A stretch of 64,000 bases of DNA from Acidaminococcus hominis (GCF_900291475.1 NZ_OLMM01000004.1:1-64000); one strand, 5' to 3'; positions 19,312 to 39,617 are shown, counted from the stretch's first letter. Numbers and translations: made by a program. Notes: generated by a model from the sequence alone, not told the origin.

Positions 19312-19322
19312 TTGAAAATTTA

Positions 19323-19352
19323 TCCTGTCGCTGCGGCGGCAGGATTTTTTTT
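19323..19352 (+). terminator. Terminator of tRNA-Val
   Basis: TCCTGTCGC / GCGGCAGGA hairpin followed by eight or more T residues, 12 bases after the tRNA. Confidence 0.85.
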
Positions 19353-19386
19353 CGTCTGAAAGGCGCTCCCCTAACCCCGCCCCGGA

Positions 19387-19438
19387 CAAAAAGGCATACC
19401 GCTCTCGCCGCCAGCAGCTTGAGCAGTATGCCTTTTTT
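19387..19438. terminator. Bidirectional terminator after the 839-residue cyclase
   Basis: AAAAGGCATACCGCTC pairs with GAGCAGTATGCCTTTTTT around a GC-rich loop. T runs are present in both directions. It closes the minus-strand GGDEF/EAL gene that ends at 19516. Confidence 0.75.
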
Positions 19439-19515
19439 GCGTATCTTTCCCTGTTAGCCCCACAGGGGTTTTCTACATATAAGTTAGTGTACAAAAACTT
19501 GTTTCTAAAATTTTT

Positions 19516-22035: not shown

Positions 22036-22177
22036 CCTTGTAACCTCACTCGGTTGGTACGCAGAGCCGCCCAGCGGGCACCCCTGCCGTTTTCATGGTT
22101 TCTGCCCGTTTCCCCACAAAACAGGCGCTGCTATCCTACTTAGCTTGCTTGTTACAGCTTTCTCTCTAAATCTATTC

Positions 22178-23875
22178 TCAGACAGGCTTTTCCAGCCCTG
22201 CCGCCATTTCTTTTTTGTCTTTCTCTTTGCCCAGCAGTGCCTGGCATTTCCTGCTGCATTCCGCCAAACTTTCGTCGTAAGGCTGGGGCCGTCCCAGCAA
22301 ATAGCCTTGGGCCAGCTCGCAGTGTTCCCGGCGGAAGAAGTCCAATTCCTCCTCCGTCTCCAGACCTTCACCCAGGGTCCGAATCCCCAGGGCATGGTTC
22401 ATGGCCAGCACTGCCGCCAGGATTTTCTGGGCCTTCACCGTAAAGGGCTCCAGAAACATCCGGTCCAGTTTCACCACGTCAAAATCGTGAGTTTTCAAGG
22501 TATTCAAGGAAGAATACCCGCTGCCGAAGTCGTCCATCCACACCTGGTACCCAGCCCGGCGCAGCCGTTCCATTTCCTCCGTCATGCGAAGGCCCTGGTC
22601 CAGCAGCAGACTTTCGGTAATTTCCACCTGGAGCATATTGCGGGGCACCCCGTACTTCAGGGTATTTTCTTCCAGCACCTCATAGGCATCGCACAGGAAG
22701 AAGTCCAGCCGGGACAGGTTTATCGAAACCGGGTACACCGGCTTTCCGGCCTCCACCCGCTGCCGGTACTCCCGGCAAACAGAGGCAATCATATGCCGGT
22801 CCAGCTTGTCAATCTGCTGGGAATCCTCCAGCGAACCGATAAAGTCCGCCGGCATCAGCAGCCCCCGCTCCGGATCGATCCACCGGGCCAGGGCTTCAAA
22901 GCCCACGGGCTCCAGGGTGTCCAACCGCACCACCGGCTGGTAGTAGGGCCGAATCCAGCCCTTTTGTACCGCTTCGTCAATATGTCCCACCACATAGCTG
23001 CGGATGGCCATACGGCCGGCCATAAGGTCGGTCCATTCATAGAAATAGGTGTCCAACCGTCCCCGGATGCTTTCGCAGGCCATCCTGGCCCGGTCCAGCG
23101 CCTGGTGCAGATCTTCCCGGGGATCCATAATCCGGTAGCCTCCAAAGTGGAAGGCCACCACCCGGTCGGAATATTCCTGCCGGAGAATCTCCCGGACCTC
23201 CTGGACCCGGTCCCGGACCCGGAGAGCATCCGTCAGGATGGCGAACCGGTCGTCCGCAATGCAAAAGACAAAATCATTGGCAAAGACCTGCTGCAGCACC
23301 GCGGCACAGCGGGCAATCAGCTGATTTCCTGCCTCTATGCCGTACTTGATGTTGTACAGCTTGAACCGCTCCACATTAAAGAAAATCAGATTCAGGGCCG
23401 GCATGGCCATCCCTTCCTGATACATCTCCAAAAATTGGCTGGCATAGGACAAAAAGCGCCGGGTGCCGGTCATGGCATCCTGCTCCACCCCGGTTTCTGA
23501 CATGGGCAGGCTGAAGCCATAGTGCAGCCGTTCTCCCTCCGGTGTCACCACCAGCCGGTCCACCGCATCTACGTGGCGGATCCGGCCCTTTTTGGTGACC
23601 ACCGTATACCGCATCCGGTAGTACAGCTCCCGGCCCTTTTCCTCCTTCTGGAGGCGCTGGCGCAGGCTTTCCCGGTCTTCCGGCCGTACCATGGTGTACA
23701 TATTGTCAGCCAGATATTCCCGCAGCTCTTCTTCACTTGCACAATCGTAGAAGGCCACCATATACGGGTTCACATACAGGAGTTCCCCGGTTTCCCGGGA
23801 AATGACCACGCCCCCCGGCATACAGTCCAAGCCCTGGGCGATGGCAATACCCCTTTTGTTTTCCTTATCTGTCAT
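22178..23875 (-). CDS. c-di-GMP phosphodiesterase with degenerate GGDEF (copy 2)
   Basis: Predicted EAL-type c-di-GMP hydrolase, 565 residues: PAS domain (about 15-130), GGDEF-like domain in which the signature has become ADDRF, and an intact EAL domain. Catalytic features seen: FEALARW, the Asn of SINLSRLDF, EITES, DDFGSGYSSL, KLDRMF, GEGLETEEE and AQGYLLG. The decayed GGDEF may bind GTP or be structural. It is a paralogue of the gene at 24189-25862. A perfect TATAAT on the minus strand at 24100-24105 may drive it, giving a leader of about 200 bases with no other signal I can support. Confidence 0.88.
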   Translation of the reverse strand: MTDKENKRGIAIAQGLDCMPGGVVISRETGELLYVNPYMVAFYDCASEEELREYLADNMYTMVRPEDRESLRQRLQKEEKGRELYYRMRYTVVTKKGRIRHVDAVDRLVVTPEGERLHYGFSLPMSETGVEQDAMTGTRRFLSYASQFLEMYQEGMAMPALNLIFFNVERFKLYNIKYGIEAGNQLIARCAAVLQQVFANDFVFCIADDRFAILTDALRVRDRVQEVREILRQEYSDRVVAFHFGGYRIMDPREDLHQALDRARMACESIRGRLDTYFYEWTDLMAGRMAIRSYVVGHIDEAVQKGWIRPYYQPVVRLDTLEPVGFEALARWIDPERGLLMPADFIGSLEDSQQIDKLDRHMIASVCREYRQRVEAGKPVYPVSINLSRLDFFLCDAYEVLEENTLKYGVPRNMLQVEITESLLLDQGLRMTEEMERLRRAGYQVWMDDFGSGYSSLNTLKTHDFDVVKLDRMFLEPFTVKAQKILAAVLAMNHALGIRTLGEGLETEEELDFFRREHCELAQGYLLGRPQPYDESLAECSRKCQALLGKEKDKKEMAAGLEKPV

Positions 23876-24099
23876 GTCTCTTCCTCCGCAGCTTCAGGTA
23901 ACAGCAACAGCGGCAGCAGCCCTGTTGTGCGTACAATGTCTGCTACAAGATTCCAGGAAAAGCCGCTTTTCTGCTTGCTTTTATCCTGTAGTTGTACAAT
24001 ATCCCTGTGGATGGCTGCCCGCACTCCTTTCTATCCTGGCAAGCCCTAGAATGAGACCCTGAAGGGCTCAACAAATCCCTTTGCAATTATTTTATCAGG

Positions 24100-24105
24100 A
24101 TTATA
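24100..24105 (-). promoter_or_regulatory. Candidate -10 element of the phosphodiesterase gene at 22178-23875
   Basis: TATAAT on the minus strand inside an AT-rich stretch, in a 313-base gap between the two phosphodiesterase genes. The -35 region is not clear, so the call is tentative. Confidence 0.4.
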
Positions 24106-24188
24106 ATATACTATATTTTATCCAAAAAGAAAAGTCGATTTTCATTGTTGGCAAGTGCCCTCAAGCCGCACACTGCCTTCTTGTACGT

Positions 24189-25862
24189 TTATTTCAAACC
24201 TGCTTTCCGCAGCTGCTGCAGCCGCTTTTGGCAAGCCGTAATACTGTCCTCATAGGGCAATGGCACCCCTAACAGATACCCCTGCACAAGCTCGCAGCCC
24301 TGGGCCCGGAAAAATTCCAGCTGCTCCCGGTTCTCCACCCCTTCTCCCAGGGAACGAATGCACAAAAGCCGGGTCATCTCCAGCACATTTTCCAGGATTT
24401 TCTTTCCCCGCTCCGTAAAGGGCCTGAGAAATTCCTTGTCCAGCTTCATCAGGTCAAAATTGCAGCTTTTCAGGGTATGCAGGGACGAATAGCCGCTGCC
24501 AAAATCGTCCATCCACACCTGGTAGCCCGCTTCCCGGAACCGGTTCACTTCTTCGGCCATCCGACCTTCCTGCCCTACCAGCAGAGTTTCAGTGATTTCC
24601 ACCCGAAGCATATTCCGGGGCACCCGGTACTCTTTTACATATTTTTCCAGGGTGGCAAAGGCATTAATCAGGAAAAAGTCCAGCCGGGACAGGTTTAACG
24701 ATACCGGATACACCGGCTTGCCGGCGTCCACCCGCTGCCGGTACTCCCGGCACACGCAGCGGATCATCTGCTGATCCAGCTTGTCGATTTGGTGGGACGT
24801 TTCCAAAGGCCCAATAAAGGCATCGGGCAAAAGCGTTCCCCAGCTGGGTTCCTGCCAGCGGGCCAGAGCTTCAAACCCGACCAGTTCCAAGGTTTTGGCC
24901 CGGACCAGGGGCTGATAATACGGCCGAATCCAGTCCTTCTCCACCGCCTCATCAATGTGGCTCACCACATAGCGGCGAATCTGCACCTTTTCCCGGACAG
25001 GAGCCGTAGCTTCCTGGTAAAACTCCTCCGGCTTTTCCCGCAGGTTGTCGCAGGCCGTTTCCGCCCACAGCAGAGAACGGTACATATCCTCCCCGCCCAT
25101 CCTGGGCAGGTAGCTGCCAAAGTGGAACATCACCACCTGGTCAGGATATTCTTCCCGCATTTTGGCATGGGCCTGCTGGATTTTTTCTTCCAGCTGCTTC
25201 ACCGGCGCCAAAAGGGCAAACCGTTCCTCCGATAAATTGAACAGAAAGGTTTCGGAAAAAACTTCCTGAAGAATGGCCGCGCAGCGGCTGATCAGTTTTT
25301 CCGTAGCTGCTGCCCCATACTTCAGGGAGTAGATCTTATAATGGTCCACATGAAAGGCCACCACCGCCAGGTTGGGATTTTTCCCTCCCTGCTGCATCAG
25401 CGCCGGCAGCTGCCTGGCATAGTCAAAAAACTTCCGTACCCCGGGCAGGGCGTCCTGATTCAGTACCGGATCATCCCCCGGCACATTGAAAATATAATGG
25501 AGCCGCCTTCCTGAGGCTTCCACCACCAGGTAGTCCAGGGCATCCACGTAGCGCAGCCGCCCGATGCGGGTCTTCACGGCGTAGCGGATATGCTGAAAAG
25601 TGCTTGTGCCTTCCCGGAACTGCTTCATCACCTGGAACAGCTCCCGCCGTTCTTCCGGCCGGACCATCCCGGTAAGCACGCCCCCCGTCAGCTGACGAAA
25701 CTCTGCCTCAGTGGCACAGTCCATAAACTCAATTACATATTTATTTACGTATAAAATACTGCCTTCCGGATCCTCCACGCAGATGAGGACACCCCCGGGT
25801 AAATGATCCAGACAGCTGGCCAGCAGCTCTTTTTTGTTTTTTTCTTGCTCGCTTGCATTCAT
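24189..25862 (-). CDS. c-di-GMP phosphodiesterase with degenerate GGDEF (copy 1)
   Basis: Predicted EAL-type c-di-GMP hydrolase, 557 residues from the ATG at 25862, which GAGGAG places 8 bases upstream (a longer frame to 25943 lacks such a site). PAS domain (VEDPEGSILYVNKYV), GGDEF-like domain with SEERF instead of GGDEF, then an intact EAL domain: FEALARW, SLNLSRLDF, EITET, DDFGSGYSSL, MKLDKEF, GEGVENREQ, VQGYLLG. It follows the first cyclase by 184 bases. That gap includes a small CCGG hairpin with T-rich tail and an 8-pair hairpin (25936-25955) in the leader. Confidence 0.88.
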   Translation of the reverse strand: MNASEQEKNKKELLASCLDHLPGGVLICVEDPEGSILYVNKYVIEFMDCATEAEFRQLTGGVLTGMVRPEERRELFQVMKQFREGTSTFQHIRYAVKTRIGRLRYVDALDYLVVEASGRRLHYIFNVPGDDPVLNQDALPGVRKFFDYARQLPALMQQGGKNPNLAVVAFHVDHYKIYSLKYGAAATEKLISRCAAILQEVFSETFLFNLSEERFALLAPVKQLEEKIQQAHAKMREEYPDQVVMFHFGSYLPRMGGEDMYRSLLWAETACDNLREKPEEFYQEATAPVREKVQIRRYVVSHIDEAVEKDWIRPYYQPLVRAKTLELVGFEALARWQEPSWGTLLPDAFIGPLETSHQIDKLDQQMIRCVCREYRQRVDAGKPVYPVSLNLSRLDFFLINAFATLEKYVKEYRVPRNMLRVEITETLLVGQEGRMAEEVNRFREAGYQVWMDDFGSGYSSLHTLKSCNFDLMKLDKEFLRPFTERGKKILENVLEMTRLLCIRSLGEGVENREQLEFFRAQGCELVQGYLLGVPLPYEDSITACQKRLQQLRKAGLK

Positions 25863-26046
25863 AGCAATTCTCCTCAATAGACAAAGGGGCCGCAATATAG
25901 TATGGCCAGCGCAAAAACCTTCTTGCCCGCGAGCCTTCTGCAAGTAGTTGCAGAAAAGAATAGTTTTAACTCTGTTAGCATATACTATACACTGATTTCA
26001 ATATAAAAGAAAGACCTTATAGTAAAAATAACCGGCTTATTCCGGC

Positions 26047-28566
26047 CTACCGCCGGTACTTGTGCAGCAGTACCAGATAATACCGATACTCCTGATTTTT
26101 CACAATAGGAATAATTTTGGCTGCCAGGTGCTTGCGCTCCTGAGTCCGGGGCACCCGGTAATAGAAGGAAATGACGTGCCCCTTGCTCAGCCGCTTGTCC
26201 GCTTTCCGGAAAGCGCTGACCAGGGTCTCTCCCCGCCGGTCCAAAGGGATATCCGGCAGCTGGGAATTTTCCGGGCTCATGGCGTCCTGGCCCAACAGGT
26301 TATAGTAGGCCTGGTTTACCTGACGCACCCGCACGACGCTGTCATCGTTTTTCACCGACACAATGGCCATGGGGCCAATCAAATTGTTCAGCTTGGTTTC
26401 GCTGAGAATATTCTCGTTCAGCAGACTGTACACGGTCAGGCTGCCCACATTGTGTTCCATCAGCAGCCGTTCCATATTCTGCACCATATCCGCCTTGCCC
26501 AAAAGAGCCTGGAAGGATTGGGGGCTCATCGGATGATACCAGTAGAACCCTTGGGCGCAGTTGCACCCCTTCTTGACCAGAAACTCGTCCTGTTCGCTAG
26601 TTTCAATTCCCGTCACCACCGCCAGAAGCCGGTAGCGCTCCGCCAGATTCAGCATACTGCTGATAATCTGCTGCTTGTAGTCTTCGCCAATATCCAGCCG
26701 CAGATGGTAACTGAATTTCACGCCCCGGATTTTCAGGCTGCCCAGGGTTTGCAGGGAATCGTACTCCAGCCCGAACTCGTCCAAAAAAACAACCAGCCCT
26801 GCGTCATATAGGGCATCTGCCCCGCTGCGCACCAAAGGATCCGACCGGTATTCCGCTTCCCGGATTTCAAAAAATATTTCCCTGCGGGTAAGCCCGTATT
26901 TTTGCAGCAGCTTCTGGATGGTTCCGGGTACATCGCCCTGAGAAAAATCCCGGGCGTGGATGTTCACAGATAAAGCCAGCGGCCGAATCCCCTGATTCAG
27001 CAGCTGCCGCTGGTACCTGCACACCTGTTCCCAAATATACTGGTCCAGCTGGAAGATAAAGGACGTTTTGGCCATATCCTCCAGGAACTGTACCGGTTCC
27101 AGCACCACCCCGCCCCGGACCCACCGGGCCAGCGCTTCGCCGCCGATTACCTTCCGGTTCTGGGGATTCACCACCGGCTGAATGCCAAAGGTAAATTCCC
27201 CCTTTTGCAGGGCCTGCTCAAAGGGCTTTACCAGCGTGTCCGGGCTTTCCGCTTGGGCCTTCCGCTGCTGCTTGTTGGCATACATTTTTTGGTCCGCCTG
27301 CCGCAGAATGGCTTCAAACCCCTGGGCCAGATCCGGCGCCCAGGTAAAGCCCAAGGACAGCTGCAGCTTCCGTTCTGCCAGCTGCCGTTCCAGCCGCCGG
27401 CCAATGTCCTGGAAGTCCTTTTCCGTCAGGCCCTGCCACAAGATGACAAATTCGTCCCCGCCAATGCGGAACACGTTGCCCCCATGGCGGAACCGCAGCA
27501 GGGCTTCTGCTGCATCGCAGATCAGCCGGTCCCCCCAGTCATGGCCCTGTTCATCGTTTACCCGCTTCAAATTGTCCACATCGGCAAACATGACCCCCAG
27601 GCTCTTTTCCGGTTCCAAAGAAGTACTCACCCGGTCAAAAGCATTCCGATTCAGGGTCCCCGTCATCTGGTCCACCGCACTGTTGGCCCGGAGATGGAAC
27701 ACCGTATTCCGGTTGGCAAACAGCATGATCAGCGGCGTAATGGCCTGCTCCAGCAGCCGGCGCATTTCCCGGATCCGGTTTTCCGGCACATTCTCCAGGG
27801 AGATGACGCACAGCCGCCGATTACGAAATTCCACCGGAAACGCCACCAGATTCCGTATGCCCAGCTTCCGGAACAGTTGCTGGGTCTCCCTGCGGCCCTG
27901 GGCCACCTGGCTCGTATCCTCAATGGCCAGACTGCCGTACTGGGCAAACAAAGCTTCCATGGTCTTTTCCATGGCCTTAAAATCCTGGGGTGCCACGCTT
28001 CTCAGCCGGGTGGTCAGGTTATCCTTCCGGAACCAGGCGTAAGGAGCCCGGGAGTGCCCTTCAAAAATAAAAGCTCGCTCCGCCCCCGTCATCAGCCCCA
28101 CATACCGCAAAAAGCAGTGGAAGGACTGCTCCGGGTCTTCCTGCTTCATGGCCCGCCGCACCAGCTTCTGGAGCAGCTCGCTGTTTTTCTTGCTTTCCAA
28201 AGCGTAGCGCAAATGGGCAAACCGGGCCTGGACAAAAGGGTCCCCCATGGGCAGGGGCATTACATCAAACGCTCCAAAGGAGAAACTCTCCTCCATTTTC
28301 TGGGAGCTGGCCTGCTGCACCACAAATAATACGGGAATCCGATGGTACTCCGGATCGTCGTGGAGCTGCTGAAAGTCCTGGAGCGCTTGTCCCGGCGCCA
28401 GCACCACCACAATGGCATCAATATGATTTTCCTGACAGAGCAGTTCTGCGGCCTGGGCCCCGGTATCCGCTTCCACAATGGTAAACTGATCCCGGATCAG
28501 CTCCGCCAGTTCCCGGCGTTTGGGACTATCCCCCACCGCCAGCAATTTAAATTTTTTCTTTGCCAT
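26047..28566 (-). CDS. Diguanylate cyclase with degenerate EAL (copy 1)
   Basis: Predicted c-di-GMP synthase. The ATG at 28566 (MAKKKFKLL) has AAGGG 9 bases upstream and gives exactly 839 residues, the same as the paralogue at 19516-22035. Order: receiver-like domain lacking the phosphoacceptor Asp (AIVVVLAPG), GAF, GGDEF with intact IGGDEFVILW, EAL-like, PAS. The EAL motif region reads GEALARW but the metal-binding DDFG is DEFG, KxD is VKFS, and AEGVE is VTGIE, so hydrolysis is unlikely. RHGG replaces the RxxD inhibitory site. It is the gene nearest the end of the pel operon, 143 bases away on the same strand. Confidence 0.88.
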   Translation of the reverse strand: MAKKKFKLLAVGDSPKRRELAELIRDQFTIVEADTGAQAAELLCQENHIDAIVVVLAPGQALQDFQQLHDDPEYHRIPVLFVVQQASSQKMEESFSFGAFDVMPLPMGDPFVQARFAHLRYALESKKNSELLQKLVRRAMKQEDPEQSFHCFLRYVGLMTGAERAFIFEGHSRAPYAWFRKDNLTTRLRSVAPQDFKAMEKTMEALFAQYGSLAIEDTSQVAQGRRETQQLFRKLGIRNLVAFPVEFRNRRLCVISLENVPENRIREMRRLLEQAITPLIMLFANRNTVFHLRANSAVDQMTGTLNRNAFDRVSTSLEPEKSLGVMFADVDNLKRVNDEQGHDWGDRLICDAAEALLRFRHGGNVFRIGGDEFVILWQGLTEKDFQDIGRRLERQLAERKLQLSLGFTWAPDLAQGFEAILRQADQKMYANKQQRKAQAESPDTLVKPFEQALQKGEFTFGIQPVVNPQNRKVIGGEALARWVRGGVVLEPVQFLEDMAKTSFIFQLDQYIWEQVCRYQRQLLNQGIRPLALSVNIHARDFSQGDVPGTIQKLLQKYGLTRREIFFEIREAEYRSDPLVRSGADALYDAGLVVFLDEFGLEYDSLQTLGSLKIRGVKFSYHLRLDIGEDYKQQIISSMLNLAERYRLLAVVTGIETSEQDEFLVKKGCNCAQGFYWYHPMSPQSFQALLGKADMVQNMERLLMEHNVGSLTVYSLLNENILSETKLNNLIGPMAIVSVKNDDSVVRVRQVNQAYYNLLGQDAMSPENSQLPDIPLDRRGETLVSAFRKADKRLSKGHVISFYYRVPRTQERKHLAAKIIPIVKNQEYRYYLVLLHKYRR

Positions 28567-28709
28567 ACTCTCCATCCCTTCCCAGGCAGCCCTGGAACTG
28601 GTTCCGGCCAGGGGGAAGGGAATTCCTTCCCTGCTCGGCCGCACTCCCCTTAAAGACGAAAATCCCCGTTGTCTATAGCAAGCGTACCCTTTGCCAACGT
28701 TTCGTGATT

Positions 28710-29693
28710 CTATTTATAGGTTTGCCATGCATCCATTACATCCAAAAACACCCCGTCAAAGCCAGCGTTCAGAATCTGGTCCAAATAGGCCCCGTCGCTG
28801 CCGTACAGCAGGTGCTTCCACTCCGGCCGCCAGTACTTCACCCGGTAGCTTCCCGGCCAGTCCGGGTTGGGTTTGCCCACCCAGTCCGGAGGCTTGGTCT
28901 TCCAGTCAGGCTGCCAGTAGGGCCGGTAGTCCGCCGCCTCCCCTACGCTCAGATAGCACAACACCAGCCGCCGCCCGCCCTGGGGCTTGTCCTGGAGCAT
29001 GGCCGTTTCTGCCGGAGTCAGCGGTTTATCCCCGTAATACAAATCCACCACCACTGCGTCGTAGGGCGTCTTTTGCAGGGCAGTCAAATAGTCCAGCCGA
29101 GTCGCAAAATTTTCCGGATTCAGCAGGAACAGAAAATTCTCTGCGTCCTGCACCCTGCGGATGTCCCGGCTGCTTACCCGGGGCACCTGTCCCTGGGGCA
29201 GCTGGGCCAGATTTCTATCCCCTACGGCCATGCTTACATAGCCGTTTTTGTGCCCCAGGGCCTCATCCTTTTCCTGCAGCTCCGGGTCCGGTATATAATC
29301 CAGGGTCCACACCGCCTTCCCCGCCTTCTGGGGCAGGGCGAATACCCCTTTTAGGAATTCCAGCATGGACTTCTCCTGGGGCTGGGGTCCCTGGTCACTT
29401 TCTGTATAAAATACGGATTCCGTGAGAAAGCCGTCCAAAGCTTGGACCAGCTTGTCCACATTTTCCTTGGGGTTGTCCGGCGTTACCTCCAAAAGGCCCG
29501 CCGCCCCGTTGCCCACCAGCTGGAAGCCGGGCCGCTTTGCCTTGGCATACTGCCCCAGTTCTCCCGCCAGCTGGATCATTTCCGTTTGGGGATTCACCGG
29601 GTTTGCCGCTTCCGGCGCCACCGCTGCTTCCCCGCAGCCCGCTGTGAAGGTCAGGAGACCTCCCAGCAGCCAGCCTAAAATTTTCTTACGCAT
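28710..29693 (-). CDS. GH114-like glycoside hydrolase lipoprotein (PelA hydrolase analogue)
   Basis: Protein of 327 residues with a lipoprotein signal (LLTFTAGC, Cys near 19) and a TIM-barrel-like C-terminal half of the endo-alpha-1,4-polygalactosaminidase type: YDAVVVDLYYGD, LCYLSVGEAADYR, YWRPEWKHLL and GFDGVFLDVMDAW carry the expected Asp/Glu residues. Pseudomonas PelA joins a hydrolase of this kind to a deacetylase; here the deacetylase is a separate gene in the same operon. The ATG at 29693 is set by AAGGAG 6 bases upstream. It is the last gene of the operon and begins 11 bases after the barrel gene. Likely role: trimming Pel during export. Confidence 0.82.
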   Translation of the reverse strand: MRKKILGWLLGGLLTFTAGCGEAAVAPEAANPVNPQTEMIQLAGELGQYAKAKRPGFQLVGNGAAGLLEVTPDNPKENVDKLVQALDGFLTESVFYTESDQGPQPQEKSMLEFLKGVFALPQKAGKAVWTLDYIPDPELQEKDEALGHKNGYVSMAVGDRNLAQLPQGQVPRVSSRDIRRVQDAENFLFLLNPENFATRLDYLTALQKTPYDAVVVDLYYGDKPLTPAETAMLQDKPQGGRRLVLCYLSVGEAADYRPYWQPDWKTKPPDWVGKPNPDWPGSYRVKYWRPEWKHLLYGSDGAYLDQILNAGFDGVFLDVMDAWQTYK

Positions 29694-29704
29694 ACCTTCT
29701 CCTT

Positions 29705-31843
29705 TTAGAAGGACTGGTTCAGGGTGCACAGCACCTTCCAGCCCCGATAGGAACCGCCACGGTCATCCTTCCGACGGAACCGTTCCCCGTCCAGACTCAG
29801 ACGATTTTTGGCGCCCAGCTGCCAGCTAAAGCCCAGCAGCAGGGAATAGTATTTATAGGCACCGCTGTTGAGTTCCAGCCGCAGCGGATCCCAGTTGGAC
29901 GTCACATCTTTATACCCCGCCAGGATATGCCATTCCTGCCGCTCATTCATATGGTGCAGCCAACCGGCCCCGGCACTGAGCCGGTGTACCGCCTGATTCC
30001 GGTAGCCCCAGCCGGCACTGACCAGGTTCCAAATGCCGTACAGGGACAGTTCGTCCCGCTTTGTAATTTGGTCATTGTAGAACCAGCTCAGCTCCCAATC
30101 GTCCCCTTCCCGGTAGTGCAGCCGGCTGTCCCGGCCCCAGAATTCCCGGGTTACAGTTTGGGTGCCCCCTTCGCCGCCCTGGGGGCCGCCCTTACCGTTA
30201 TGCAGCGTCCTGGGCACTTCCACTTCCCGCAGCTCACTGAAAATGGTGTCCTGGTAGGAGCTCTCCGCATGGCTGTGGACCACCCCCAAACGGTATTGGG
30301 TTTTGGGCCCTGCATGGAGGTAGCTGACCTCCTGCTGGAAAGCATTCCCCGGGTCCACCTGGGCCCCCGGCACTTCCTTGGAATAGTCGTAGCTCCGGCG
30401 GAGCGTGTACTGGACGCTGGCCGCCAGACTGTCCCGCTCCGTAAAGTGGTGGATCAGTTCAAGGCCCGGGGTCACCTGGAACCCTGCACCAAAATCCGTC
30501 ATCCGGGCCAAATCATTTCCCACCACGGCATTTTGGTAGATGGCACTCTGCCCCGTAGGCAGATTAAACAGCAGCTGGTAGCGGACGCTGTTTTGCTTGT
30601 GGTCATTGCGCAGTTCGGCACTCAGCTGGGTATCCGCCCAGCCCGACACGCTGCCGTGGCTCTTATGGGTATCCGATTGCACATAGCCCGTAGAAAGGCC
30701 AATATCCACCCGGTGGCCGCTAATCCGTCCTGCCTGGTAAAAATTCAAGGGAATAAACAGCTGATGCCCGGATTCCCGGCCCTTCCAGCTGTCAAATTCC
30801 ACGCCGGTCTGCCAGCCCGCCCCTTCCCCAAAATGGGCCAGGGCGTAGTCCGCCCGCTGCCGCTCCTTCAGGGCGCTGCGGGCCCAGTTCTCCGCGTCGT
30901 CCAGCCATTTGGCCGCTTCGGAATCGTAGGCCTGGGCTTCTGCCTCGTCTTTTTCCGCCTGCTGCTTTTCCACCGTCAGTTCCACGGCCTGCTGCTGGTA
31001 GTCCCGGACCTGTTCCCGGGCATCCCGCTCGGCGTCTTCCGCCTGCTCCCGGGCATCCGTCAAAGCGTCCAGCTGCTGCTGGAGCGCATCCAGTCTCTGG
31101 TCCGCTGCATCCAAAGCCTCGCTGGCCGCATCCATCTGCTGGGCCAAGCGGTCCAGTTCTGCCTGGGCTTCCTGCTCCGCCGCATCCTCCTGCCCGTTCA
31201 GCTTGTCCAGGGCATCGTTCACCATATCTTCTGCGTCCAACAGCCGGTTCTGTTCATAATTTACGGCAGTCAGCGCCTGCTTTACCAAAGCTTCTTTTTG
31301 GGCGTCCTCCGCCCGGAGGGCCTCCGTATCCCGGTTCTCCACGGCCTTTTCCTTGGCCTCGTAGGCCGCTTCCCGTTCCTTGGCAGCCGCCTCCTTGGCA
31401 TCCCGGTCCGCCTGGGCCGCCTGCACGGCCGGGGTAAACTGCACCACCGCCCGCTGGGCCGCCAGCGCCGCGTGGGTCCGCTTGGCACTTTCTGCCTGGG
31501 CCTTTTGCAGGGCGGCTTCCGTTTCTGCCAGGGCTTTTTTCACCGCGTTCAAATTGGCCAGCACCTGTCCCAGGTTCACTGCCGCTTCCCGGCGGCCTTT
31601 CTGGGCCTCAGCAAGACCTGCCCTGGCCTGTTCCAAATCCACCCGAGCCCGTTTCACATCGGCCTGGGCCTGGTGATAATACCGGATTTCCTCCCGGGAT
31701 TGGCGCAGGCTGTCCAGTTGGGACCGGACATCGTGGAGCACATCCCGGGAGGCCGCAAACCCCAGGGCCGGCACGCCCCAGGTTCCAAGCCCCGTAATCA
31801 CCGCCAGAAGGCCCGCTGCTTTCCGCTTCGTTTGCTGGTTCAC
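29705..31843 (-). CDS. Outer-membrane coiled-coil / beta-barrel protein, candidate Pel exporter
   Basis: Protein of 712 residues. A signal peptide ends at about residue 31 (LGFAA). Residues about 33-330 are a long Ala/Glu/Gln-rich coiled coil, and residues about 345-712 alternate polar and aromatic residues as in a beta-barrel, ending in Phe (LCTLNQSF), the usual outer-membrane insertion signal. The start overlaps pelG by 4 bases (ATGA). In Pseudomonas the equivalent step uses PelB, a TPR-plus-barrel porin, with PelC. By position and layout this protein is probably the export pore with a coiled coil replacing the TPRs. I know of no close named relative, so the function is inference. Confidence 0.75.
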   Translation of the reverse strand: MNQQTKRKAAGLLAVITGLGTWGVPALGFAASRDVLHDVRSQLDSLRQSREEIRYYHQAQADVKRARVDLEQARAGLAEAQKGRREAAVNLGQVLANLNAVKKALAETEAALQKAQAESAKRTHAALAAQRAVVQFTPAVQAAQADRDAKEAAAKEREAAYEAKEKAVENRDTEALRAEDAQKEALVKQALTAVNYEQNRLLDAEDMVNDALDKLNGQEDAAEQEAQAELDRLAQQMDAASEALDAADQRLDALQQQLDALTDAREQAEDAERDAREQVRDYQQQAVELTVEKQQAEKDEAEAQAYDSEAAKWLDDAENWARSALKERQRADYALAHFGEGAGWQTGVEFDSWKGRESGHQLFIPLNFYQAGRISGHRVDIGLSTGYVQSDTHKSHGSVSGWADTQLSAELRNDHKQNSVRYQLLFNLPTGQSAIYQNAVVGNDLARMTDFGAGFQVTPGLELIHHFTERDSLAASVQYTLRRSYDYSKEVPGAQVDPGNAFQQEVSYLHAGPKTQYRLGVVHSHAESSYQDTIFSELREVEVPRTLHNGKGGPQGGEGGTQTVTREFWGRDSRLHYREGDDWELSWFYNDQITKRDELSLYGIWNLVSAGWGYRNQAVHRLSAGAGWLHHMNERQEWHILAGYKDVTSNWDPLRLELNSGAYKYYSLLLGFSWQLGAKNRLSLDGERFRRKDDRGGSYRGWKVLCTLNQSF

Positions 31844-33309
31844 AAGGACCCTCCTTTCTGGGATTCCTTCACCCCATAGAGTTTATCCCGCAAATGGGTC
31901 ATAAACGAAACCCTGGGCCGGTAAAACATGGGCTGGCCGCAGAAAATATAATAATTCAGCCGGTCCGCAAAATGGTCCAGGCTGTGCAGCCCGTAGAACA
32001 GGGCAAGGCCGCTGGACAGGAAGAAGGTAAAGCCGTAGCTGCTCTCCCCAAACAGGGCAATGCCCCCCAGCCCCAGTACCAGGGTACCCAGAAAGTACAG
32101 CCCCATCAACCGCAGGGCCTGCTCCTGGGCATCAAAGTACAGGAACAGGATGCTGATGACTTCCGTAACCCCGGTAAAATACGCCGCCATCAGAAGAATA
32201 TCATACAAATTGGCTGCCTCAAAATCCACGTTGGCCAGAGTCAGCACATAGGTTCCCCCGGCCAAAGCCAGCAGGGTAAACAGGAACTGGAAGCCCATGA
32301 GCTTGCGCAGTTCAAACCACATGGTAAACAGCAGGGTCTGCCGGCCATCCTCAATATCCCGATAATTGCCCTTATGGATAATGGCATCAAAATAAATGGC
32401 GTACCGGTCGTAAAATTCCGTTTCTGCAGATACCACAAACATGGTTCTAAGGGGCAGAATGGACAAAAAGGCATAGCAGGTAATGATGTCGTACACCGGG
32501 GCAAACCGGTAGGTTCCTCCCACCACCGTGCCCCAGGAACCCTGCCAAATCATCAGGTTGGGGAGAAACAGCCCCAGGGAATAAGCCATGGCCTCCAGGA
32601 ACACCTTCCAATGCTGGTCCAAAATGGAGAGAAACCAGAACACCCGGCCCTGCCGGGGCGGTCCAAAATAATCGTACAAAGCCAGGTAGAAGGTCAGCAC
32701 AATCATGCCCATGCCCACATCCACTCCAGCCACGCCGCAGCGGGCAGCCGGCAGCTCTCCGCCGGTTAGCAAAACCCCGGTGACCAATACCCCTGCCACT
32801 GCCCCTGCCAGATAGCCCAGCACCAGCCCCTTAAACTGGCGCACCGCCGTCAGGTACACCCCCTGGCTCCAAATCAGCAGCATCTCACTGAAAAACAGGT
32901 ATCCCAGCACCTTGTCCACCCAGGGAAGGGGACTGGGCAGATAGAACAAAAAGGCCGCAAGGGCCCCCAGGCCCAAAAGCAGGGCGTTGATACCAAACAG
33001 GGACGCCGTAATGTCCCCGTACCGCTTTTCACTAAGACAATCCGCCAGATACCGGGTCTGCACCGTCACAAACCCGCTGGACAAAATCTGGGAAAACACA
33101 AAGGCATACACCGTAGTGCCAATAAACAGGTCGGACTCCACCTTAGGAACCCGGGCGTGGGCAAACAGGGCCTGAATGGCCAGCATCAGGCCCGCCAGCA
33201 GGATAAATGGCCCCGTGGTAATCACCAAAGAGGCAGAATACGCCTTCAGCTTCCCGGTGGCGGTCCGGGCCTTGAACAATTTTTTTAATTCGAAGCCAAC
33301 GCCTGCCAT
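31840..33309 (-). CDS. pelG: Pel polysaccharide membrane protein PelG
   Basis: Inner-membrane protein of 489 residues with about 12 membrane segments and the characteristic N-terminus MAGVGFELKKLF, typical of PelG, a MOP-superfamily flippase-like protein. With PelD, PelE and PelF it forms the inner-membrane synthesis and transport complex for the GalNAc/GlcNAc-type Pel polymer. It overlaps pelF by 25 bases and the barrel gene by 4 bases, so translation is coupled. Confidence 0.92.
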   Translation of the reverse strand: MAGVGFELKKLFKARTATGKLKAYSASLVITTGPFILLAGLMLAIQALFAHARVPKVESDLFIGTTVYAFVFSQILSSGFVTVQTRYLADCLSEKRYGDITASLFGINALLLGLGALAAFLFYLPSPLPWVDKVLGYLFFSEMLLIWSQGVYLTAVRQFKGLVLGYLAGAVAGVLVTGVLLTGGELPAARCGVAGVDVGMGMIVLTFYLALYDYFGPPRQGRVFWFLSILDQHWKVFLEAMAYSLGLFLPNLMIWQGSWGTVVGGTYRFAPVYDIITCYAFLSILPLRTMFVVSAETEFYDRYAIYFDAIIHKGNYRDIEDGRQTLLFTMWFELRKLMGFQFLFTLLALAGGTYVLTLANVDFEAANLYDILLMAAYFTGVTEVISILFLYFDAQEQALRLMGLYFLGTLVLGLGGIALFGESSYGFTFFLSSGLALFYGLHSLDHFADRLNYYIFCGQPMFYRPRVSFMTHLRDKLYGVKESQKGGSL

Positions 33310-34736
33310 GATGCTCCCAGCTCTCCTTCCTCCCGGTAAATCCGGCGATATGAATCAATAAAATGCTCGTAGGTATAGCCCCTGAGGGTTCTTTCGTACC
33401 CGGCCTGGGCCATCTGGTGCCGCAGGGGGAAGTTCCGGGCCAGCCGGAGAATTTCCCGGGCCATGGCCTCAAAATCCAGAGGCGGCACCACAATCCCTGC
33501 ATCCCCCAGGGTATCCTGGCTGTCCCCGTAGATTAACTCCCGGCAGCAGCCCACATCCGTGGTCACAAAGGGGCGATGGGCCGCAAACCCCTCCAGCACC
33601 GACAGGGGCTGCCCCTCGCTGATGCTGGACAGCACCAATACGTCCATTTTGGGCAGGTACTCCGTCACCTGGATGGAGCCCGTAAAGGTCACCGTCTCCG
33701 TAATCCCCAGCAGCTCCGCCGTATTGACGCACAGCTGGGCGTATTCCGGGTCTTCTTCCATATTTCCCATGACGTACAAATGAGTGTCCGGCATATCCTG
33801 GTGCACCAGGAAAAACGCCCGCAGCAGGGTTAGGATATCCTTAATAGGCACCACCCGCACCACTGCCCCAACATTGATGGTGCCCCCGTGGTCCGTCAGC
33901 TCCGGAATGGGCGCAAACCGTTCCATATGGATGCCATTGGGCACAATGGCAATTTTCTTAGGGTCACAGCCCAGTTCCTTTTCGATCTGCCCGTTATGCT
34001 CAAACAAGGTGAACACATGGTCCGCCTTTTCGTAGGCAAGCTTGGCCAGGTTGTAGAAATACCGGATCCACACGGACTTGAAATCCGTCTTGGCCCAGTC
34101 GCTTTTGATGATTTCCGCTTCCCGCTCCCGGGAATAGATGCCGTGTTCGGTAATCATAAAAGGCTTGTGGTACACCGTCGCCCCAATACCTCCCAGAATG
34201 CCGCAGTAGCCCGTAGCCACACTGTGGTAGACATCCGCTTCCGGCAAATCCTGCTGGAGCAGGTAAAAAAGGGGCAGCAGCATGGACCGCAAGGTCCAGA
34301 AAAATTCCGTAAAGGGCAGGTAATCGTACCGCTCCGCATAAATTTTTCGGATAACCTGGAAAAAGTCCCCAGTCATAAAAATGTCCAACGGACTTTCCCA
34401 CTGCTTATTCCGGAAAATATCCACCAGCCCGTCCAGGTTGATGGGCTGGTCCCCCTTGACCAGTTCCTCCAGCACCTGCTGCTGGGCTTCTGTCAGGGCG
34501 TGTTCCTGCATGGTCCCTGCCTTCAGGTTCAGAATTTCGTCCAGGAACACCTCCTGGATGCCCACGCAGTTTTGCGGCAGCTTGTACTTGTAGTGTCCCC
34601 GGTCCTTGGCTTCCGCCCCAATGGAGTACACCACAAACTCATATTCCGGCAGCCCTTCCATGAGCATCTGCACCCAGGAAGAAACGCCCCCTACCACATA
34701 GGGGTAGGACCCTTCGGTCAAAAGGCAAATTCTCAT
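33285..34736 (-). CDS. pelF: Pel glycosyltransferase PelF
   Basis: Cytoplasmic GT4-type glycosyltransferase of 483 residues that polymerises Pel from UDP-sugars. The PelF start MRICLLTEGSYPYVVGGVSSW is diagnostic, the C-terminal half has PNGIHMERF and the nucleotide-sugar EX7E motif in SISEGQPLSVLE. It begins 12 bases after the end of the deacetylase reading frame and overlaps pelG. Confidence 0.95.
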   Translation of the reverse strand: MRICLLTEGSYPYVVGGVSSWVQMLMEGLPEYEFVVYSIGAEAKDRGHYKYKLPQNCVGIQEVFLDEILNLKAGTMQEHALTEAQQQVLEELVKGDQPINLDGLVDIFRNKQWESPLDIFMTGDFFQVIRKIYAERYDYLPFTEFFWTLRSMLLPLFYLLQQDLPEADVYHSVATGYCGILGGIGATVYHKPFMITEHGIYSREREAEIIKSDWAKTDFKSVWIRYFYNLAKLAYEKADHVFTLFEHNGQIEKELGCDPKKIAIVPNGIHMERFAPIPELTDHGGTINVGAVVRVVPIKDILTLLRAFFLVHQDMPDTHLYVMGNMEEDPEYAQLCVNTAELLGITETVTFTGSIQVTEYLPKMDVLVLSSISEGQPLSVLEGFAAHRPFVTTDVGCCRELIYGDSQDTLGDAGIVVPPLDFEAMAREILRLARNFPLRHQMAQAGYERTLRGYTYEHFIDSYRRIYREEGELGASWQALASN

Positions 34737-34748
34737 GGCTTCTCCTTT

Positions 34749-36590
34749 CTAGTTTTTCCAGTAGATCCGGGCCACCGGATCCGTCACTTCCACAAAATAC
34801 ACCCCGTCCTCCACCTTGTTCACCCGGCAGCCCTGGACATGGTCCAAGGTTCGCTGGGAACGCAGCAGGAAGCGGGCCGACCGAATATAGTTCCGGCAAT
34901 GGAGCACCAGCATTTCAGGAGAACGCTCCATCCGGTAATCCAAATCGTAATACGTGTCAAAATAGGGCAGGCTTTCCGATACCGTTACCGCCTTCAGCCA
35001 GGGATAGCGCTGGGACAGCTCCCGGACAAAGTCCTCCAGACTGTCGTGCATCTGCTTCCAGGACAGCTTGGCACTTTCCTCTTAGAACATTTCGTCCGGA
35101 TGGATAAAATGGTTGAAGACCCCCAGGTCATTGATGGCGCTGATTTCCCCATAGACGGCGGACTGGTCCGGTACGTACCCCGAGGAAATCCGGGGAATAT
35201 CGTAATACCCGCCCCGCTCCCGGCGAAAGTTCTGGTAATAGGCGTGCTCGTCCGCTGGCCCATCGTACAGGGAAGCAAAAATCTTCAGTTCCGGGAACAC
35301 TTTTTTCAGGGCGTCCTTGCCCATGGGGCTAAGAATATTGGAAGGCGGCACATAAACTTCAAAACTATATTCCGGATAGGCCTGGTACACATACCGGCGC
35401 AGCTCCGTTAGGGCTGCCTGGATATCTTCTTCGCTGGTCCAGGGCACGTAGTCCGGCTCATGGTCCTGGTAGCCCGGAGGCACCAGAGGCTGGTGATTGT
35501 ACCCGTGCAGGCCCATTTCCCCGCCCATGTTCAGCAAATCGTGGCCATAGACCACTAGCGCGTCCCGGGCATTCCGGCCGTTTTGCGGTTCAAAGGGCGG
35601 ATGCACCCGGTCATTGTAGCTTTCAATAATGACCCCGGTAAACTTGATTTTTTCCCGCTGGGCCAATTGCTTCATAAACGGCCACCAGGCCTTCCGGTAA
35701 AAGTCCGAGGTGGACAATCCCGTTTCCTGGTAGATTTTGTCATAATAGCCCTCCGGCACCGGCGCCGGGAAATCATCAATAAAGAAAATCTTTACCCCCA
35801 CCACCGGATACAGGGTATCCGTACCGCAGTGGGCCAGCATGGCCATCAGGATTCCCCGGTTGGACTTGTCCTCCCGTTCCACCCCGTTGTAGAAATACAT
35901 TTCTCCCTGGCCCAGGGGTTCCTGCCACACCAGGGGCACGCTGCCGCTCCGGTCGGTGATATGGACCACCGCCTCCGGGCCCAATTCCACAGGTAGTACA
36001 TAGGTATTGTAGGACCGGCCAGTGACAATTTCTTCGCCCTTGGCCCCAATGAGAAAATTGGTGCGCATGGATAGGCCCGTCACGCTTTGGGGCTTTCCGT
36101 TTCCCTTGAGGCCTGTTATGCCCAGCTGCCGCAGGGTTTCCGGGGCCAGGGGCTTATCCCCCTCCAGTTCCAGCTGCTGGAGCACCACCAGCGTTCCCCC
36201 CTGCTGCACATATTGCAGAATCTGGGGCAGGGCCGCAACGGCCCCCAGCCGGCCAGTAGTTACCACAACCCCCTGGGTATCCTGGGGAATGGCCATGCTT
36301 TGCCGCAGATCCACACTCTCAAAATGTTTCTTTTTGGCCTGGAGGGTCCGTTCTGCATTGTGTCGGCAGAACATACTCCGGACACTGGTGGGATCATAAA
36401 TGACAATATAGTTTTCTACCGGCAGATTTTCCACCTGGCTCCAATCCACCTGCACCGGCAGATTTTCAATCCGGCGGAACTTGTTGGCCGCCGGGTTCAG
36501 GTGCAGGAAGCCGTCCAGCCGGGTATATTGGAAAAAGCACCCCAAAAGGACCACCACAAAAAACAGTGCGTAAATTCCCCGCTTATTCAT
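34749..36590 (-). pseudogene. pelA: Pel deacetylase (DUF2194, PelA-type) with in-frame TAA
   Basis: One reading frame of 613 codons interrupted by TAA at 35082-35084. The first part (502 residues, 36590-35082) has a membrane anchor at residues about 7-23, a glutamine-amidotransferase-like region, and a polysaccharide-deacetylase-like domain (IFFIDDFPAP, GLHGYNHQPLVP). The frame then continues unchanged past the stop (EESAKLSWKQMHDSLEDFV...) to 34749 for about 110 more residues that look like normal protein. The total fits the DUF2194 deacetylase of Pel clusters. The gene is probably broken by a nonsense mutation or carries a sequencing error; residual function of the first part is possible. 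It overlaps pelE by 8 bases. Confidence 0.82.
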
Positions 36591-37479
36591 GGTACACCTC
36601 CCGGTCCCAGTACCGCAGCACCTTCAGAGCCTCCGGCGACAGCGCCTTGGGCAGTGCCTTCAGTTCCTGGATGCAGGCCTGGAGCGCTTCCGGCTCCCGT
36701 TTGGCCTGGTGCAACCGGATTTCCATGAGGATGGGCCGCTCGTCTTCCGGGTGACCCGCCCTAAAGCTCCGGCACACCGCTGCCGCTTCTTCCGTCCGGT
36801 GCTGGGCCAAAAGGGCCTTGATTTCTTCTTCGTAGTAAATGGATTTTTCCGGCATTTTCTGGGCCAGCACCTCCAGTACCCGGATATAGGCTTCCTGCTG
36901 CCGTGCCCGGGTAGCTGCGTCCCCGTAGCCGCTGGACAAAAACCGCTTCAGGCACCCAGCGTACCGGTCCATCAGTTCATGGTTGTCGGGAGCTGCCGTC
37001 TTTAGCTGTTCTTCCAGTTGGTGGATTTTCTCCCCCAGGCTTTCCATTTTGGCCGTCAGCAGGGACACGGCATAATAGGCAATTTCCCGATCCTCATCCT
37101 GAATGGCCCGGCGCAAAATGGCCTGGTTGGTGACCACATCCTGCTTGATAGAATCCGTAAAAAGCTGCCGCTTCAGCTGGGAATTACCCAGCAGATACAC
37201 ATCATTTAACGGCACCATATTCCCGTTGTAGTCCCGGTCCCCCAGGGCAAAGTCCGTCCCCGGGTCCCGGTCTTCCAGGGTATGGCCTCCGTTGATGCCA
37301 AAAAAGGTGGAAAATAGCTGTACCAGGGTAAGCAGCACCACGCCGGCCACGGGCACCAGCAAAACAATCAGCAGTTCTGCCAGCTTCTGGTACCGGTTCT
37401 TGCCGGACCAGTGCAGATAGCCCCCGTACAGGACTGCCGTCAGGGCATAAAGGCCCCCAAACAGTTCACTCCCGGTCAT
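36583..37479 (-). CDS. pelE: Pel membrane/TPR protein PelE
   Basis: Protein of 298 residues: two N-terminal membrane helices (about 5-20 and 30-55) followed by a cytoplasmic helical region with TPR-like units (for example MDRYAGCLKRFL and EEIKALLAQHRTEEAAAVCR). This matches PelE, which bridges PelD and PelG. The ATG overlaps the pelD stop (ATGA); a longer frame up to 37887 runs through pelD and is rejected. Confidence 0.82.
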   Translation of the reverse strand: MTGSELFGGLYALTAVLYGGYLHWSGKNRYQKLAELLIVLLVPVAGVVLLTLVQLFSTFFGINGGHTLEDRDPGTDFALGDRDYNGNMVPLNDVYLLGNSQLKRQLFTDSIKQDVVTNQAILRRAIQDEDREIAYYAVSLLTAKMESLGEKIHQLEEQLKTAAPDNHELMDRYAGCLKRFLSSGYGDAATRARQQEAYIRVLEVLAQKMPEKSIYYEEEIKALLAQHRTEEAAAVCRSFRAGHPEDERPILMEIRLHQAKREPEALQACIQELKALPKALSPEALKVLRYWDREVYHE

Positions 37480-39617
37480 AGGATATCCCTGCTTTCTCCC
37501 GTCCTGAGGCCAGCCTTTTCCAGGCGGTCCCGCACCAGCTTCAGGGTAGCCTCGGTGCAGTCCGGCAGCAGTACCCAGGCTTTGTTTTCCCACAGGCCAA
37601 TAAAGTCCTCGGCCCGGATTTTTCCTTCCAGCAGGGTATCCAGCTGTTCGTAGTCCCCGCCCTGGGGCGCCGCCACCTCCAGCAACTTGATGGCATAATC
37701 CCGCTGGAGCTCCCGGCGCTTCCGGTATTCTTCCCGGATTTTGGCAAATTCTGCTTCCTTGAGAATGCGAGTTCCTGGCAGGCACCGAGCTTTTTGGGTT
37801 TCCAGTTCCCAGGCATAGGCCCGGGCCAAAGAAGACGACACCAGCCGGGCCGTAATGGAAAGCAGATTCTGCTGGTACAGGCTCCACTGATCAAAATTCA
37901 GGTCGTACACCTGGATTACTGCCCAAACCTGCCCCTGATACAAAATGGGAGCCGCCAGGTCTGGAGCATTGGCGCTGAGCTCCCGGTTCACAAACAGGCT
38001 CTTGCCGGCCAGTACGGACTTCAAATATGGATAATCCGCCACCTTCAGGGACCGGGACTGCTTCAGCGTGTCCTGCCCCACCCGCACCTTTTGGCGCAGA
38101 TACTGCCGGTTGTGGCTCACCACGTAGATGATCACATTCTCCACGTTCAAAATCTCCGCCGTTACCACCGCCGTCTGGGTGTACAGGTTTTCCGGTTCCG
38201 CCGAATCCAGTTTCTGCAAAATATAGTACAGCCGGCCAATACTGTCGTCTGAGTTGACGATTTGCCGGTACAGCTGGTCCTTTACCTGGACATTTTCTTC
38301 AAACAAATTCCGTAAAAAGGCATACTTCTCCTGGTCGTGCTTTTCCTGCCACTTGGCCGCCGCCAGCTTAAAGTTTTCTTCTTCCCGAAAGTATGCCGTT
38401 ACCATCCCCACAAAGGCATAGGATACCAGATGGATCAAATGCTGGGGCAGGTACAGCAGCGTCAGCAGGGTGGAATCCAGCACCAACATCCGCCGGGCAA
38501 AAATCAAAACAGAAAACAATACCGCAATCAGCGCCTGTCGCTGGCCGTAGAGAAGCCCCATCACGGCAATATATACATAGCACAAATCAAAACCCGTCAG
38601 GCTGCTTACCGTGTCCCCCTGGAGATACTGGAACCCCAGCATCAGGAGCGCTCCGGCCACATTTTCCGCATAGGGCAGCCGCTCCTGGTTGAATCGGTCC
38701 TGCCAGGAATGGTGCTGCCGTTTTTCTGCGTTCTCCTGTTCCAGCCGCAGCGCTTCCTGCAAGCTGGCATAAATGCTCTGCAGCCCCGTCTTTAACGGCT
38801 GCTTTGCCCGCCAGCCAATTTCCCGGGCTGCCCGGTCACTGTTCAGCTGGGCCTGGCCGTAGGGCTGGAACTGGTCCGGGTCCACCTTGGGCAGGTACGG
38901 TACAAAGGTAGCGGCCAATTGGCAAAACTGGTCATAGGTCAGTCCCTGGCCCGTACCCAAATGCAGCAGGTCGCCCTGATAATCCCGCTGGAGCAGCTGG
39001 ATAATCCCGTAAAACAGATCCTGGGTGGCCAAAAAATCCCGGGGATATTCCTGGTCACACCGGGGCATCAGGGTATTGCCTGCCACCGCCCGGAAAAAGC
39101 TTCCGATAAAGCCACTCTGGGCCCGCTTGCCCGGCCCGTACACCTCCGGCACCCGCAAAATCGTCAGTTTCAGCTTGCTGTATTTTTTCCAGGCCAGTGC
39201 CAGCGCTTCCAGCCGGGCCAGCAGCTGTCCATGCTCCTCTGCCGGGTTGGGTGCCAGTTCTTCCGTGGCATCTTGGGTTCCCGGGGCAAACACCTCAGCC
39301 CCGGAAATCAGGAGAATCCGGTCCACCTTGCTTTTTTCTGCCAGGGACAGGATTCTTTCCAGATGGGCAGCCGTATCCGGTCCCTGTGCCGCCCGGAGAT
39401 TCACCAAAAGCAGATTGGGTTTCTGGACCTGAAAGACCTGGGCGGCCCCCTCCTCCATTACGTCCACCTGATACGTCCGTGCCCCTTCATATGTTCCCGG
39501 GTTCTTACCCAGAAACAGCACCTGCCAATTTTCCTTCTGAAACAAATTGGAAAGGTTCAGGGCCACCGTTTCCCGCATTCCAATGCACAATACCGTTCTG
39601 CGCCTAGCTGCCGTCAT
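37476..39617 (-). CDS. pelD: c-di-GMP receptor PelD fused to an epimerase-like domain
   Basis: Protein of 713 residues. Residues about 1-285 resemble an NAD-dependent sugar epimerase/dehydratase (LLISGAEVFAPG, LRVPEVYGPGKR, DFLATQDL), but the glycine-rich start is CIGMRETVA and no clear YxxxK is seen, so catalysis is doubtful. About four membrane segments follow (about 310-420), then a GAF domain and a degenerate GGDEF domain. RAED in GKIRAEDFIGLW fits the RxxD c-di-GMP-binding site of PelD. GGAGG lies 7 bases before the ATG. First gene of the operon; it should switch on PelF when c-di-GMP rises. Confidence 0.88.
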   Translation of the reverse strand: MTAARRRTVLCIGMRETVALNLSNLFQKENWQVLFLGKNPGTYEGARTYQVDVMEEGAAQVFQVQKPNLLLVNLRAAQGPDTAAHLERILSLAEKSKVDRILLISGAEVFAPGTQDATEELAPNPAEEHGQLLARLEALALAWKKYSKLKLTILRVPEVYGPGKRAQSGFIGSFFRAVAGNTLMPRCDQEYPRDFLATQDLFYGIIQLLQRDYQGDLLHLGTGQGLTYDQFCQLAATFVPYLPKVDPDQFQPYGQAQLNSDRAAREIGWRAKQPLKTGLQSIYASLQEALRLEQENAEKRQHHSWQDRFNQERLPYAENVAGALLMLGFQYLQGDTVSSLTGFDLCYVYIAVMGLLYGQRQALIAVLFSVLIFARRMLVLDSTLLTLLYLPQHLIHLVSYAFVGMVTAYFREEENFKLAAAKWQEKHDQEKYAFLRNLFEENVQVKDQLYRQIVNSDDSIGRLYYILQKLDSAEPENLYTQTAVVTAEILNVENVIIYVVSHNRQYLRQKVRVGQDTLKQSRSLKVADYPYLKSVLAGKSLFVNRELSANAPDLAAPILYQGQVWAVIQVYDLNFDQWSLYQQNLLSITARLVSSSLARAYAWELETQKARCLPGTRILKEAEFAKIREEYRKRRELQRDYAIKLLEVAAPQGGDYEQLDTLLEGKIRAEDFIGLWENKAWVLLPDCTEATLKLVRDRLEKAGLRTGESRDIL

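Follow-up and report, generated by a model that had tools for sequence, protein, structure and literature searches.

The exporters PgaA, BcsC and AlgE/AlgK rely on TPRs, carried in domains or in a lipoprotein. For Pel, the closest described systems are two operons. In Pseudomonas aeruginosa, pelABCDEFG encodes PelF, PelG, a PelD with an I-site and a PelA-type deacetylase plus hydrolase, and PelB-PelC provides an outer-membrane barrel of approximately 16 strands and, in the periplasm, a long helical part (PMC12141448). The Gram-positive operon pelDEADAFG of Bacillus cereus, clostridia and streptococci has the order D-E-A(DA)-F-G, an SDR-extended PelD, a deacetylase-only PelA and a separate hydrolase, PelAH, a split between deacetylase and hydrolase that is a known Gram-positive-type arrangement (PMC7112168). 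Within the Negativicutes, OmpM of Veillonella is a trimeric porin with an SLH domain that joins a coiled-coil stalk to a 16-strand barrel (PMC10628300). In the literature examined (most subscription papers and preprints lay outside the search), papers on Gram-positive Pel do not name Negativicutes, a Selenomonas genome paper lists PelF and PelG as the only Pel proteins, and no outer-membrane protein of the kind described below is named. Outer-membrane export of synthase-made exopolysaccharides by diderm Firmicutes appears to be undescribed in that literature.

The window analyzed here is a 64,000-nucleotide stretch of Acidaminococcus hominis DNA (NZ_OLMM01000004.1:1-64000). Read from the sequence, its gene content and synteny are those of a pel operon in the order pelD-E-A-F-G, followed by the gene for a coiled-coil barrel protein and then by a lipoprotein gene, all on the minus strand:

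37476-39617, minus strand: pelD (PF01370, 3e-10; GAF, 8e-9)
36583-37479, minus strand: pelE, 298 aa from an ATG overlapping the pelD stop, with homologs in the same place in Negativicutes pel loci
35082-36590, minus strand: pelA, 5ʹ portion, ending at an in-frame TAA (PF09960 (DUF2194), 4e-105, positions 3-483)
34749-35051, minus strand: remainder of pelA, in the same frame past the nonsense codon (PF09960 positions 496-581, 2.8e-12)
33285-34736, minus strand: pelF, GT4 glycosyltransferase and Pel synthase (NF038011, 1e-115)
31840-33309, minus strand: pelG, inner-membrane exporter (PF16933, 6e-107)
29705-31843, minus strand: predicted coiled-coil beta-barrel protein, 712 aa (AlphaFold2, fold comparison, synteny)
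29708-30835, minus strand: its predicted barrel domain (profile A11)
28710-29693, minus strand: PelA-hydrolase-like lipoprotein, 327 aa (GH114, 2e-19; lipobox-like TAGC)
26047-28566, minus strand: GGDEF-EAL protein, immediately 3ʹ of the operon and co-directional with it (EAL, 6e-42; GGDEF, 1e-23)

The pelA interruption excepted, the spacing between genes is -25 to +12 bases throughout the operon. Overlaps are 4 bp between pelE and pelD and 25 bp between pelG and pelF; the barrel gene, with a GTG start after a GGAGG box, overlaps pelG by 4 bp and is separated by an 11-bp gap from the lipoprotein gene, which starts at an ATG and not at the GTG at 29729. PelF (387.6 bits against NF038011, curated cut-off 100) and PelG (358.8 bits against PF16933, cut-off 29) both score above threshold. 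The gene order and the overlapping or near-touching genes described in a first-pass annotation of this DNA are borne out by these coordinates, as is its GH114-like lipoprotein after the barrel gene, and the core that it called monoderm-like matches the Gram-positive-type arrangement (PMC7112168). Beyond that annotation are the stop in pelA, a permutation in the GH114 lipoprotein, the I-site of PelD, and congeners that lack the operon and the neighboring c-di-GMP gene.

The core operon is not new, as it is of the Gram-positive pelDEADAFG type in gene order, SDR-extended PelD, deacetylase-only PelA and separate hydrolase; in contrast to that type, pelG in the Negativicutes is immediately followed by an added gene for an outer-membrane barrel, and the host is a diderm (PMC7112168). 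The host genome encodes BamA/Omp85 and SLH proteins of the OmpM type, which mark it as diderm. With the P. aeruginosa system the locus shares PelF, PelG, the PelD I-site, deacetylase and hydrolase functions of the PelA type and, by prediction, the barrel with its long helical periplasmic part; unlike that system, it has no TPR scaffold, no PelB_C and no PelC-like gene in the operon, carrying a coiled coil instead, and its hydrolase is a separate, permuted lipoprotein (PMC12141448). We consider it likely that this is a Negativicutes Pel secretion system in which the 712-aa protein replaces PelB (and PelC) as outer-membrane exporter; the barrel would then probably be a new type of Pel export gate, taking the place of the Pseudomonas gate.

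The 712-aa protein comprises a signal peptide (about residues 1-31), long helices (36-337) and a C-terminal barrel (338-712) ending in Phe, the helical N-terminus and the barrel fold being model predictions. It matches no Pfam family. A search for TPRs finds no match, and the N-terminal half (residues about 30-335) matches coiled coils only; in the barrel-domain profile A11, Q361, P429, G431, G454 and P459 (full-length numbering) are invariant. For the full-length window protein, AlphaFold2, working from an alignment of just four sequences, places helices at 36-215 and 224-337 ahead of a barrel of 14-16 strands, with a poor pLDDT of 55. The better of two models, that of the barrel of the Selenomonas infelix ortholog, has 16 strands (pLDDT 79, pTM 0.74). 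Sequence features and AlphaFold2 thus agree with the signal peptide, the coiled coil of roughly 300 residues and the C-terminal barrel ending in Phe of the first-pass annotation, which had made its reading depend on a predicted beta-barrel; its estimate of about 16 strands is matched by the S. infelix model and only loosely by the low-confidence full-length one. A side feature of the Selenomonadaceae barrel proteins L068, L070, L072, L082, L098 and L101 is a long Arg-rich extension before the signal peptide, with repeated RMTRxRKR-like motifs.

In a VIA-align comparison, the S. infelix barrel has PelB (9h80) as its top match (Z 20.5, rmsd 3.8, 255 aligned), followed by PgaA (4y25; Z 20.0), BcsC (18.7) and AlgE (18.1). 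BamA, CdiB and porins fall within about 1-2 Z units of PelB, a near-tie that indicates a shared fold and does not prove an export function. The likeness to PgaA, BcsC and AlgE/AlgK lies in the barrel fold (Z 18-20) and in a role proposed from that fold and from genomic context; against the Pfam models of these families, the 712-aa protein shows no sequence relationship. A rough count of inside and outside charge, in which several strands are ambiguous as to side, gives an inward charge near balance or slightly positive; an anionic pore like that of PelB is not clearly seen by this weak test.

Sequence comparison separates the barrel from the PelB family. PelB_C (PF24604) is absent from the 712-aa protein and from all 28 pel-positive Negativicutes genomes searched, whereas the same model detects the two Proteobacterial pel plasmids used as a positive control at 1e-58 and 1e-37. 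Distant homology to PelB was rejected, given an hhalign probability of 5.7 over 31 columns when 24 barrel domains were compared with 8 PelB barrels (reversed-profile null, 0.2). Nor does any small outer-membrane lipoprotein ORF of PelC-like kind lie within the operon.

Fusobacteriota also carry pel operons, as in Cetobacterium somerae (L105:9409-12427) and Fusobacterium vincentii (L106:10415-13684). In both, PelG has an extra C-terminal transmembrane segment, a lipobox-like motif (LSGC or LGGC) and GYN-type repeats, and is followed by an ORF of 305-316 aa with a signal peptide, barrel-like sequence and a terminal Phe. Homology of this ORF to the Negativicutes barrel was rejected (probability 0.2), and it has no profile similarity to PelB either; it is perhaps yet another outer-membrane solution.

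The fold comparison also bears on a different reading, in which the 712-aa protein is an OmpM-like tether or a diffusion porin merely carried with pel, or a porin that imports the Pel fragments released by the hydrolase. In the same class, OmpM too has a coiled-coil stalk on a 16-strand barrel (PMC10628300), OmpM1 is among the structural matches of the S. infelix barrel (Z 17.1), and the low-confidence full-length model, which matches outer-membrane barrels, is closest to the 14-strand CymA/OmpG (Z 22). Against this, a Pfam search finds no SLH domain in the 712-aa protein, and its profile shows no similarity to the barrels of OmpM proteins from this class (hhalign probability 0.44), by which an origin from OmpM was rejected. 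The genomic distribution described next is likewise unexpected of a general porin: the gene keeps strictly to positions after pelG and close to GT2 synthases, the protein covaries with PelA and PelG, and one copy is fused to PelG. We regard the porin reading as very unlikely.

Among 380 Negativicutes genomes, pelG is found above cut-off in 59. A barrel homolog is present in 58 of these 59, compared with 11 of 320 pelG-negative genomes (Fisher p about 7e-56, indicative only, as the species are related); the single exception is a genome whose contig ends 166 bp past pelG. Conservation of the family extends to position: in 55 of the 59 genomes, the barrel gene is the immediate 3ʹ neighbor of pelG and shares its strand, and the remaining four are the truncated contig, one genome with the barrel in the same cluster (L073) and two with it elsewhere in the genome (L072 and L098). 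The first-pass annotation, which rested its case on homologs not lying mostly away from pel, is supported by this neighborhood. The barrel-only profile A11 confirms 66 genomes; with it, the matches in G334 and G229, which are among the 11 pelG-negative genomes, vanish and are put down to the coil or to chance. The usual order is D-E-A-F-G-barrel-AH, with AH first in three other families. Pairwise distances of the barrel correlate with those of PelG (r 0.87), PelA (0.92) and PelAH (0.92), compared with 0.91 for PelG against PelF. In G063 (L079:8171-11578), a single uninterrupted frame of 1136 aa encodes both PelG and the barrel; a signal-peptide-like segment lies inside it, and the product may be a polyprotein that is cleaved.

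Named members of the family occur in S. infelix ATCC 43532, S. felix and Megasphaera sp. NM10; these three loci were found by searching genome contigs with a five-sequence alignment, a single-protein search having given no match. No homologs were found on plasmids, and the family is confined to the Negativicutes as far as searched. The eight congeners searched have no pelG.

The barrel family is not restricted to pel. Barrels that are not pel-linked come from pelG-negative genomes and, as a second barrel, from one pelG-positive genome, and by profile comparison they form one family with the pel-linked barrels (probability 100, E 4.5e-79). At L084 and L085, found in pelG-negative genomes or as second barrels, genes for GGDEF, DUF2334, GT2 and a BcsB-like protein immediately precede the barrel. 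At L089 the barrel adjoins a GT2 and a polysaccharide deacetylase, the latter a weak match, with L086 and L088 alike by sequence, and at L091 it adjoins a GT2-PilZ synthase, MBOAT, an AlgX-like protein and a GH5 cellulase, a setting that L087 appears to share. For five members (L072, L082, L083, L090 and L098), no synthase neighbor is obvious.

Because the same family stands beside other exopolysaccharide synthases, it is better named the Negativicutes exopolysaccharide barrel than a Pel-specific protein, and it is probably a general exopolysaccharide exporter of this class. The TPR-barrel proteins of Proteobacteria likewise serve several synthase systems, and one exporter family serving several systems would be the simplest reading here. 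The possible third Pel architecture of the first-pass annotation is supported insofar as a different outer-membrane module accompanies the pel core, and needs widening insofar as the barrel family extends beyond Pel.

These neighborhoods also weigh on the alternative that the 712-aa protein is a surface anchor or adhesin, in which the coil is exported as a passenger or serves as a stalk that binds the matrix, while the barrel acts as translocator or holdfast, so that Pel exported by another route is retained on the cell. The classical autotransporter barrel has 12 strands, compared with 16 in the better model here. A coiled-coil passenger ahead of a C-terminal barrel is also autotransporter-like, and autotransporters are used in Negativicutes biofilms (PMC7549365). 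However, autotransporter Pfam families match none of the 24 barrel members, autotransporter barrels rank far lower in the fold search of the low-confidence full-length model, the barrel family adjoins several unrelated synthases, and the operon has no other exporter gene. An anchor or adhesin is unlikely; like the porin, it fits synteny with diverse synthases less well than an exporter does.

For the exporter, the passage of Pel through the barrel, the task of the coil and the nature of the polymer are inferences. The polymer would be Pel of the partially de-N-acetylated alpha-1,4-GalNAc type. PelD bound to c-di-GMP would activate a PelDEFG inner-membrane complex, in which PelF would polymerize the chain and PelG would move it into the periplasm for deacetylation by PelA. 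The C-terminal barrel of about 16 strands would form the outer-membrane pore, and the coiled coil of roughly 300 residues may reach across the periplasm toward the inner-membrane complex, replacing the TPR scaffold of PelB, BcsC and PgaA.

The regulatory end of this scheme can be traced in PelD and its surroundings. PelD has an N-terminal SDR/epimerase-like domain, a transmembrane region, a GAF domain and a short, degenerate GGDEF remnant. It keeps the RxxD I-site (RAED) and a second Arg in alignment with Proteobacterial PelD; these are the c-di-GMP-binding residues of B. cereus PelD (PMC7112168), and binding is predicted here from their presence. Four tandem genes of GGDEF/EAL type (19516-28644) lie downstream of the operon and are read the same way, and the two GGDEF-EAL proteins among them are paralogs (49% identical). 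For the one encoded at 26047-28566, which probably acts in c-di-GMP control, a search of eight congeners gave no comparable relative. Together with a tRNA gene that precedes them, the GGDEF/EAL-type genes form a stretch (19235-28644) adjoining the pel operon that is possibly a genomic island.

At the other end of the operon, the GH114 TIM barrel of the lipoprotein is circularly permuted. Its profile (A8, 19 homologs) aligns with TM1410 in two blocks in swapped order, 248-331 to 61-140 (2e-26) and 35-168 to 146-276 (4e-8). The N-terminal half has a further match in 5TCB, the hydrolase structure of P. aeruginosa PelA, where it falls in the C-terminal part. Truncation of GH114, as a match to one half might suggest, was rejected, since the proteins of relatives stop at this point too and the remaining half is matched once the permutation is allowed for. 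The permuted order is common to Negativicutes and Fusobacteriota pel loci. In the proposed scheme, this lipoprotein would be the PelA hydrolase, encoded apart from the deacetylase.

The pelA gene is interrupted by a single in-frame TAA at 35082-35084. DUF2194 homology, matched to position 483 before the codon, resumes from position 496 in the same frame (35051-34749), and an alignment of 24 PelA proteins shows pelA uninterrupted in 23 relatives. The motifs DD, HxxxH and HPDE, equivalent to the catalytic motifs described for B. cereus PelADA (PMC13254593), all precede the stop, with the domain tail and the C-terminal part after it. Judged by its sequence, this copy of pelA may be broken. The operon could then be decaying in this genome and make no mature Pel, whatever the barrel does elsewhere, a possibility that we place a little short of probable. 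Homology on both sides of the TAA, intact pelA in the relatives and the complete absence of pel from the eight congeners point that way. Against decay, every catalytic motif of PelA lies before the stop, the remaining operon genes are all open, an ATG downstream at 35051 could restart pelA, and the TAA may be either a true mutation or an assembly or sequencing error. Moreover, decay of this copy would leave the class-wide conclusion untouched. Some Negativicutes pel operons carry a tandem pair of pelA (deacetylase) genes (L096:2464-6150 and L073:4675-8499).

Across the class, we lean toward viewing the family as a third kind of outer-membrane exporter for exopolysaccharides, one that does without TPRs: a coiled-coil protein with a 16-strand barrel, confined to Negativicutes as far as searched, that would serve Pel, GT2-deacetylase systems and cellulose-like systems (GT2-PilZ with O-acetylation genes) alike. 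The coil would span the periplasm as a polymer guide and couple to the exporter of the inner membrane; in one lineage, this coupling would be a direct fusion to PelG. If this is true, the TPR scaffold of PgaA, BcsC and PelB would not be obligatory for this mode of secretion, and there would be an exporter to test in biofilms that Selenomonas, Megasphaera and their relatives form in mouth and gut.
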